DNA of 64,000 nucleotides from Treponema sp. GTDB taxonomy: Bacteria > Spirochaetota > Spirochaetia > Treponematales > Breznakiellaceae. Below the pieces are notes generated by a model that saw only the letters and a list, made by a program, of their open reading frames with translations, had not been told where the DNA came from and searched no databases. A program made the position numbers and the translations under genes. The stretch spans positions 1-64,000 of the forward strand of contig WQXI01000006.1 in NCBI GenBank assembly GCA_009784935.1, given 5' to 3'. Every line of letters starts with the position of its first letter. Within the stretch, counting starts at the first letter, position 1. Positions 61,706 to 64,000 of the stretch are shown here, piece after piece.

Positions 61706-62191
61706 TCAAGGTACCCACATTAATTTGTCGGGAGCCGATTCCTTTAAAAATATATTTTCATAGCGTCCTGAATGCTTAAGATTTGTTTTTTCAGGAAAAT
61801 ATTGCTGCATATAAAACCAGAGCACATCAGCCATAATATTAGAAGAATCTGTCGGGGTATACCGATACCAAATTTCTTTTTCTTCAAGGATTTTTCTCGC
61901 TTTTTCGTTATCTTTGCATAACTCCGGGTCTGTGATCCGCCGAATTTCGCTTCTTAATCCGCCGTAATCAGTTTTTCCAACTACAAACAACCGTAAACGG
62001 TTCTTTTCGTCCATCCAGTAGATTTCAAATACTCCCGCCAACGCAGGGACTTTGGTGATAATATCATAACGAATTGCTTTTGAAAGCGGAGACCATTGAA
62101 CAAAGTAATAAATGTCCCCATGTTTTTCTGTAGCTGTAATGCCGTACTTCATACCCAATTCTATCATAAAACAATTACTATTTCTATACAT
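61706..62191 (-). CDS. Unknown protein upstream of the YrdC-like gene
   Basis: Up to 161 residues, soluble, no signal. The start is uncertain: ATG 62191, 62167 or 62152 (GMKYGI) are all in frame and none has a clear ribosome binding site; a TATGAT 10 nt before ATG 62152 would suit the short-leader pattern of the window. The body mixes strands and helices (DIYYFVQWSPLSKAIRYDI, EIYWMDEKNRLRLFVVGKTD). I recall similar treponemal proteins but no function. Confidence 0.6.
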   Translation of the reverse strand: MYRNSNCFMIELGMKYGITATEKHGDIYYFVQWSPLSKAIRYDIITKVPALAGVFEIYWMDEKNRLRLFVVGKTDYGGLRSEIRRITDPELCKDNEKARKILEEKEIWYRYTPTDSSNIMADVLWFYMQQYFPEKTNLKHSGRYENIFLKESAPDKLMWVP

Positions 62192-62277
62192 AAAATATAA
62201 TCGCTGTATGAAAAATTATACATTTTAGCGGTTTAGTATAATTCAATTTTTTTGGTATTTTCTCCTAACTCCTTATG

Positions 62278-62302
62278 TAACAAAGAGTTATAATAGTTGT
62301 TA
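62278..62302. promoter_or_regulatory. Inverted repeat upstream of the sigma-54 promoter
   Basis: TAACAA (62278-62283) and TTGTTA (62297-62302) flank 13 nt, about 20-45 nt upstream of the -24 box. A second pair, TGTAT/ATACA, lies at 62205-62222. Either might bind an activator of the sigma-54 promoter; the first is closer than enhancers usually are. Confidence 0.3.
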
Positions 62303-62318: not shown

Positions 62319-62336
62319 TTGGCACACTTGTTGCTA
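62319..62336 (+). promoter_or_regulatory. Sigma-54 (-24/-12) promoter of the alternative sigma factor gene
   Basis: TTGGCACACTTGTTGCTA matches the sigma-54 consensus TGGCAC-N5-TTGCW exactly in its core: GG at 62321-62322 and GC at 62333-62334, 12 nt apart. Transcription would start near 62346, leaving a ~29-nt leader with AGGGGG before ATG 62375. Initiation should need an ATP-driven activator protein, not seen in this window. Confidence 0.8.
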
Positions 62337-62374
62337 TATAATTATTGCCGTTTAAGTGATGGCAGGGGGCTTAT

Positions 62375-63208
62375 ATGCAAAAGAAAGCGTCTAGAACCAG
62401 CGAAGATTTGCTAGAAACGTACATAAAGCAGATTAAAGCATTTCCTCTTTTATCATTTGATGATGAAATCGAATTATCAAAACAGATTCAGCAAAAAACT
62501 GATTTGATAAAACATCAGGCAGCATTGAATAAACTTATAAACTCGAATCTAAGGCTTGTAGTTAAAATAGCCGGATTATTCAATGTTCCCGGCATACCGC
62601 TTTTGGACATGATTCAAGAGGGGAATATAGGACTTATTAATGCCGCGAGAAAATATGATTATAAAAAAAATGTGCGTTTTTGCACTTATTCAAGCTGGTG
62701 GATTCGTCAGTTTATAAGCAGGTACATTGCCAGTAAACGGAGGCTTGTCCGCCTGCCTCAGCGCAAAGAAGAAACTATGCGTAGAATTAATCACGCATAT
62801 CATGTTCTTTGCCAGAGTCTTATGCAGCAGCCGAAAAGTTCTGATATTGCAAATGAACTTGGCCTTCCTGTAAAAGTAGTTGATTCATTCATTAATATGG
62901 ACAATTACAGCGATGACGTAAACATTGTAGATATTCACGAAGATTATACCTACAGCCCGGAACTCAATTATATGAAGCAGATATCTCATGACGATACAAT
63001 GTTCCTTCTTAATAATTTGAAAGACAGGGAAAAGAGAATTATAAATTACCGTTTTCAGCTTAATGGCTGTGAATATCATACATTAAGAGAAATTGGCTGC
63101 AAGATGGATATTTCGCCGGAGACTGTCCGCCAGATCGAACAAAAGGCTCTTAAAAAAATCAGAAGCCGCGCGGATGAAATACGGGAAATTTATGTAGAAG
63201 CGATTTAG
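62375..63208 (+). CDS. Alternative sigma-70-family sigma factor (RpoS/RpoH-like)
   Basis: 277 residues, no region 1.1, so not the housekeeping sigma. Region 1.2 at about 10-40 (ETYIKQIKAFPLLSFDDEIEL), region 2 at about 50-125 with LRLVVKIAGLF, DMIQEGNIGLINAARKYDY and CTYSSWWIRQFI (-10 recognition and melting), region 3 about 130-170, region 4 about 205-270 with a helix-turn-helix LREIGCKMDISPETVRQIE (-35 recognition). It directs RNA polymerase to its own regulon. Its sigma-54 promoter makes it a second-tier factor, as for RpoS of Borrelia. Confidence 0.9.
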   Translation: MQKKASRTSEDLLETYIKQIKAFPLLSFDDEIELSKQIQQKTDLIKHQAALNKLINSNLRLVVKIAGLFNVPGIPLLDMIQEGNIGLINAARKYDYKKNVRFCTYSSWWIRQFISRYIASKRRLVRLPQRKEETMRRINHAYHVLCQSLMQQPKSSDIANELGLPVKVVDSFINMDNYSDDVNIVDIHEDYTYSPELNYMKQISHDDTMFLLNNLKDREKRIINYRFQLNGCEYHTLREIGCKMDISPETVRQIEQKALKKIRSRADEIREIYVEAI

Positions 63209-63264: not shown

Positions 63265-64000
63265 ATGACAGAAAACTCGCTGGTTATTTATAAAGAAAAA
63301 CCTGCTCTTGTAAAAAATTACAGCGAAGGTAAATTTACGATAGCGCTGTCAGACGGTTCACAGATAAAAGTTCGTGATAAAGATATTGAACTGCTTCATC
63401 CCGGTCCATTAAAAGATTTAAACGGAATCGCTGACTATAATATTGACCATGCTTCTATAAAAGAAGCATGGGAGTATCTCACAGAAGAAGACAGTCCTGT
63501 TTCTGTAAAAGATTTCTGTGCACTTGCTTTTAATGAATATACTCCTTTTACTGCTTATGCCGCGTATTCTCTTTTAAAAGACGGTCTTTATTTTTGCGGA
63601 AAAATTGACGCTATTTTGCCTAGAAGCAAAGATGATGTAGCTGCAGACGAGATAAAAAGGGGCGATAAACAGCGCGAGACAGATGAACGCATTAAATTTT
63701 TAGAACGGTTAAAGTTATGCTATAAAAAACCGGAAGAAAATAAAATGCTTCCTGATGATACGCGTTTTATTCAGGATGCCGAAGCTCTTGCATTCGGAAA
63801 ATCTGCAAAGAGCCGTACGATGAAAGAGCTGGGCTTTAGTGAAACGCCGGAAGACGCGCATGCGCTTCTTTTAAAAACAGGTTTTTGGACAAATAAAATT
63901 AATCCGCACCCGGCGCGTTTTGGCCTTTCGCTGTCTGATTCTGTTATACGCCCTGATGAGCCGCCTAATGAAGACAGAAAAGATCTTTGCCGTCTTGATG
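63265..64000 (+). CDS. RNase II/R-family exoribonuclease, partial
   Basis: The frame is open from ATG 63265 to the window edge (245 codons seen). It carries an N-terminal S1/SH3-like part (VKNYSEGKFTIALSDGSQI), helical linkers, and then RPDEPPNEDRKDLCRLD, the entry to the RNB catalytic domain where the metal aspartates lie. The layout resembles the shorter RNase II forms of cyanobacteria and spirochetes. Degrades RNA 3' to 5'. The catalytic core lies beyond the window. ATG 63265 is preferred to ATG 63261, whose frame closes quickly. Confidence 0.8.
   Translation, partial: MTENSLVIYKEKPALVKNYSEGKFTIALSDGSQIKVRDKDIELLHPGPLKDLNGIADYNIDHASIKEAWEYLTEEDSPVSVKDFCALAFNEYTPFTAYAAYSLLKDGLYFCGKIDAILPRSKDDVAADEIKRGDKQRETDERIKFLERLKLCYKKPEENKMLPDDTRFIQDAEALAFGKSAKSRTMKELGFSETPEDAHALLLKTGFWTNKINPHPARFGLSLSDSVIRPDEPPNEDRKDLCRLD

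Follow-up and report, generated by a model that had tools for sequence, protein, structure and literature searches.

A conserved sigma-54-type promoter ahead of an alternative sigma factor gene in Treponema sp. points to a probably ancestral Rrp2-RpoN-RpoS-type relay in spirochetes

The closest described counterpart of the locus studied here is the Rrp2-RpoN-RpoS pathway of Borrelia burgdorferi (PMC2940757, PMC1976401, PMC3037356), and in the Lyme spirochete this sigma-54-to-RpoS relay is a central switch for virulence, in which the sigma factor controls host-adaptation genes. Direct control by RpoN has been called a 'unique feature' of Borrelia rpoS (PMC2940757), and Rrp2 is reported to work without an enhancer (PMC1976401). 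Another spirochete, Leptospira interrogans, resembles our case in that it combines sigma-54 with a dedicated activator, EbpA; Leptospira reportedly lacks RpoS and uses its sigma-54 regulon for survival in the environment and for nitrogen metabolism (PMC12655853). No earlier report of such a relay in treponemes was found in the open-access literature, the only literature searched, and this is weak evidence of absence. With the B. burgdorferi pathway, the present locus shares a -24/-12 promoter before the gene of an alternative sigma factor of the sigma-70 family, the presence of RpoN, an activator of the response-regulator type that resembles Rrp2 and has a histidine kinase as its neighbor, and a sigma factor that falls in the clade of the inferred Borrelia RpoS. 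It differs by a conserved enhancer-like repeat (motif A) and a second repeat (motif B) upstream, by three activators instead of one, and by a second sigma gene (clade C) that also has a sigma-54 promoter. For comparison we used the genomes of family f7, which we take to be Borreliaceae (an inferred identity). They are 0.9-1.9 Mb in size, their main contig is ∼0.9 Mb long, and they encode a sigma factor of ∼276-281 aa (gene near 810-840 kb) as well as just one activator (near 802-805 kb). A sigma-54 element precedes the sigma gene in 9 of 10 cases, as is known for rpoS.

The window (that is, the whole stretch of 64,000 nucleotides that was analyzed) belongs to a genome of 2.37 Mb that is 95% complete. 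At 62375..63208 on the + strand it encodes an alternative sigma factor of the sigma-70 family (277 aa, clade W), in which a Pfam search recognized regions 1.2, 2, 3 and 4 and did not find region 1.1. The protein resembles proteobacterial RpoS (TIGR02394) in its group-2-like domain content and similar size; its score of 173.8 bits against this model did not meet the cut-off of 378.7. This NCBIfam cut-off is non-discriminating here because the inferred Borrelia RpoS likewise fails it (214.7 bits). In front of the gene, at 62320..62335 on the + strand, lies the -24/-12 sigma-54 promoter TGGCACACTTGTTGCT (GG-N10-GC), with GG at 62321-62322 and GC at 62333-62334, that is, 12 nt from GG to GC. With 10 nt between the two dinucleotides and a TGGCAC...TTGCW context it meets the criterion for a sigma-54 promoter, and it agrees with the consensus at all conserved positions except for the weak G after TGGCAC. 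Its weighted consensus score was 19 of 19.5; when its own upstream region was dinucleotide-shuffled 5,000 times, only 0.06% of the shuffles attained this value (P=0.0006). Thus, the original prediction, made from sequence alone, of a sigma-54 core match with 12-nt GG-to-GC spacing ahead of a sigma-70-family gene without region 1.1 held. Transcription would be expected to start near 62346 on the + strand, a position inferred from the -24/-12 geometry, unmapped and without RNA data; in the absence of transcription data, the activity of the promoter at 62320-62335 is likewise an inference.

An obvious objection is that the match arose by chance, or that the element belongs to a sigma-70 promoter (TTGGCA ... 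TATATAAT), and the downstream TATATAAT does look like a -10 hexamer. However, TTGGCA and TATATA are only 10 nt apart, less than sigma-70 requires, and a scan of the + strand of the gap found no competing consensus sigma-70 promoter. The chance reading is opposed by the shuffle probability given above and by the finding that GG-N10-GC is kept across families while the flanks diverge. We therefore consider this explanation virtually ruled out and treat the element as a sigma-54 promoter. The accompanying claim that it stands alone in the gap was only partly correct: no rival + strand sigma-70 promoter is present, but the gap also holds two conserved inverted repeats, upstream elements which the original prediction had missed, as it had the second sigma-54-driven sigma gene. 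Genome-wide pattern searches with the strict pattern TGGCAYRNNNNNTGCT returned 9 matches in the 2.37-Mb genome, compared with 3 for the control; four of the nine precede genes, and two of these four precede sigma-70-family genes. Matches L120, L121, L124 and L126 lie within coding sequence and were dismissed as chance, as was L123, which overlaps an ORF too.

Conservation of the promoter could be demonstrated at several depths. The -24/-12 element is kept at all genus loci read (33 of 33) and at nearly all family- and order-level orthologs. Across the phylum, 96 of 114 sigma loci scored at least 17, which was reached by 1.7% of dinucleotide shuffles, and 57 scored at least 19, which was reached by none of 11,400. 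Loci without the element were mainly those of RpoD and of the clade of the genome's own sigma factor on contig C29, which serve as built-in negative controls. It should be noted that a clear element is wanting in a few clade members (L225 and L227). The nearest named relatives are Treponema sp. metagenome-assembled genomes, which we take to be of termite-gut origin, judging from their isolate codes.

The surroundings of the sigma gene were also examined. An RNase II-type protein is encoded 56 nt downstream (63265..63999, + strand, 3' end outside the window), and this neighbor is kept on the same strand at 18 of 29 other same-genus loci; it is probably an operon partner that is co-transcribed with the sigma gene. 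Upstream, a divergent gene of unknown function without a Pfam match (61706..62191, - strand, start at 62191) shares with the sigma gene the intergenic region that contains motifs A and B.

Motif A, TGTATGAAAAATTATACA (TGTAT-N8-ATACA), is an inverted repeat at 62205..62222 on the + strand that starts 115 nt 5' of the -24 element and is centered at ∼-132. Exact half-sites were present at 23 of 33 genus loci, 15 of 49 other clade-W loci and 3 of 11 Treponema F3 loci, and the motif starts at a median distance of 114 nt upstream of the -24 element in the genus, as against 111 nt for the other clade-W loci. Motif A was not found at the inferred Borrelia or clade C loci examined, and therefore there is no one-to-one link between activator and enhancer. 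A combined pattern of motif A plus sigma-54 element gave 39 matches in 60 genomes (none with the reversed control), and 29 of 30 loci drawn from these matches carry either the sigma gene or a 209-aa membrane protein; the pair marks essentially two gene families, the clade-W sigma factor and this small membrane protein. Most other TGTAT-N8-ATACA sites, several of them beside toxin-antitoxin-like genes, had no sigma-54 partner and were set aside. While the presence of the motif is shown, its role is inferred: we propose that it is an upstream activating sequence, or enhancer, for a sigma-54 activator, at the classical enhancer distance, and the activator that binds it remains unidentified. Judged from sequence alone, a conserved enhancer-like repeat would suggest the opposite of the enhancer-independent activation of Borrelia.

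Motif B, TAACTCCTTATGTAACAAAGAGTTA, is an inverted repeat (TAANTCCTTAT-N5-ANRGANTTA) at 62266..62290 on the + strand (∼-68), whose binder is unknown. It starts 51-54 nt 5' of the -24 element in most genus loci, a near-fixed distance, and our first idea was that it represented the activator site. This idea was rejected: the motif occurs at many loci without sigma-54 sites and is therefore not sigma-54-specific. Its palindromes were seen at nine dnaA, gyrB, fusA-like and tRNA loci in the genus, with none for the reversed-pattern control. In addition, a short mobile-element-like inverted repeat (CTAGTGTCCTGTAATATTC...) at four loci has a similar palindrome mid-way. We infer that motif B is the site of a second regulator.

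A variant of the rejected idea deserves mention, in which the relay stands, motif B is the activator site and motif A belongs to the divergent gene. The near-fixed distance of B from the -24 element and the position of A next to the divergent gene speak for it. On the other hand, A lies at the enhancer distance, persists in more distant relatives than B does and is met again 116-126 nt ahead of the other sigma-54 gene, that of the 209-aa membrane protein, whereas B is found at the many places listed above; moreover, the divergent neighbor was undetected at those distant clade-W loci where A has been retained. This variant thus appears improbable, and motif A remains our candidate enhancer.

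The remaining components of a relay were found in the same genome. It has one rpoN (one Sigma54_DBD match, E=2.3e-52), and rpoN was present in 57 of 60 relatives, including all 32 good assemblies. Three genuine sigma-54 activators were identified, each with the AAA+ domain (PF00158) and a Fis-type HTH. Two of them, L002 and L003, have a receiver-AAA+-Fis HTH architecture and are each adjoined by a histidine kinase, and the third, L004, is without a receiver. Sigma-54 activators were present in all 60 relatives. Compared with the only activator found in the inferred Borrelia genomes (the inferred Rrp2), L002 was 53-54% identical over its full length (448 aa), and L003 41-44% identical; the recognition segment IGRKTL is common to L002 and the inferred Rrp2. 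L002 is thus clearly the nearest to the inferred Borrelia Rrp2 and meets the criterion for an Rrp2 ortholog by identity, without an activator tree. A T. pallidum-like genome holds a 59% counterpart.

In careful trees rooted with RpoD, clade W, Treponema F3 and the inferred Borrelia RpoS form one clade (support 100/99) that is almost uniformly sigma-54-positive, with the inferred Borrelia RpoS on a long branch inside it. A larger quick tree had the better likelihood when Borrelia was held with W (p-AU 0.89), and a tree in which Borrelia was held with clade C was worse but could not be rejected (p-AU 0.087). Those checks and refuting conditions of the original prediction that are open to computation came out in its favor: rpoN and AAA+ activators are both in the genome, the promoter is kept in close and distant relatives, and the sigma factor groups with the inferred Borrelia RpoS and not with RpoD or other group-2-like factors. 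The RpoN-RpoS-type cascade is supported by rpoN, the activators, the conserved promoter and the tree. Of its two suggestions that the cascade is 'older or recurrent' in spirochetes, the former fits better because the sigma factor groups with the inferred Borrelia RpoS and the activator is nearest to the inferred Rrp2.

A second sigma-70-family gene of this genome, on contig C38 (18876-19718), has the sigma-54 promoter TGGCACGAATTATGCT in front. Its product belongs to the paralogous clade C, which was sigma-54-positive in 16 of 18 rows from several families; thus, sigma genes under sigma-54 control are not confined to a single orthologous group. The 1.1-Mb single-contig genome G046, which is inferred to be T. 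pallidum-like from its size and kinship, contains a clade C sigma gene on a long branch (C1:1104726-1105532), and a sigma-54 element, TGGCATGATATTTGCT, lies upstream of it. The same genome also has the Rrp2-like activator.

It could be argued that the relay is real but not homologous to that of Borrelia, sigma-54 control having been gained separately before clade W, clade C and Borrelia rpoS. At least two sigma clades are under sigma-54 control, Borrelia lacks motif A and, in the quick tree, the grouping of Borrelia with clade C was not rejected at the 5% level, all of which would agree with separate gains. However, the strongly supported and nearly uniformly sigma-54-positive clade that includes the inferred Borrelia RpoS argues against them, as does the activator being nearest to Rrp2, and sigma-54 control could also predate the split of W and C. 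Separate gains therefore seem unlikely to us, but a single ancestral origin as opposed to repeated gain remains an inference. The preferred reading is an ancestral relay of the Rrp2-RpoN-RpoS type, in which the DNA enhancer was probably kept here and lost in Borrelia. The same wiring recurs phylum-wide and looks like an old spirochete inheritance and not a Borrelia invention; our data point to a relay that has long existed in spirochetes and to an enhancer-like site that most lineages have kept.

In this proposed relay, a sensor kinase would phosphorylate an NtrC-type activator, for which the Rrp2-like protein encoded on contig C22 is the most likely candidate, and this activator would then bind motif A at ∼-132. 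Looping and ATP hydrolysis would open the RpoN-polymerase complex held at 62320-62335, and the sigma factor, probably made together with the co-transcribed RNase II-type protein, would steer polymerase to its own regulon. Both the signal and the regulon are inferred only. A bolder reading, which may just as well prove wrong as right, is that sigma-54 gating of alternative sigma factors was ancestral in the spirochete phylum and acted on the paralogs W and C, with W served from a dedicated enhancer, TGTAT-N8-ATACA. Borrelia would then retain a pared-down form from which the enhancer has been lost, and the reduced T. pallidum-like genome would keep only the clade C arm. If the relay truly operates in treponemes, those of termite guts and others alike, and in further spirochete families, then it is older than parasitism, and free-living or culturable gut spirochetes are where one can look for its original signal. 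With a conserved enhancer, the activator would be open to testing by footprinting, and the lack of this enhancer in Borrelia would identify the enhancer-independent behavior of that pathway as a loss.

Two further sites in this genome were noted. The 209-aa membrane protein, noted at a site on contig C56 (1606-1745), shares the layout of motif A, motif B and sigma-54 element. The pair of motif A and sigma-54 element was found ahead of its relatives in at least 9 genomes, one from another family, and in nearly all cases a B-like repeat is present too. No Pfam or NCBIfam model matches the protein; by eye, it possibly resembles a polyprenol/diacylglycerol kinase. In addition, a strict sigma-54 element on contig C14 (43419-43434) is located 144 nt 5' of an hsp20 gene.
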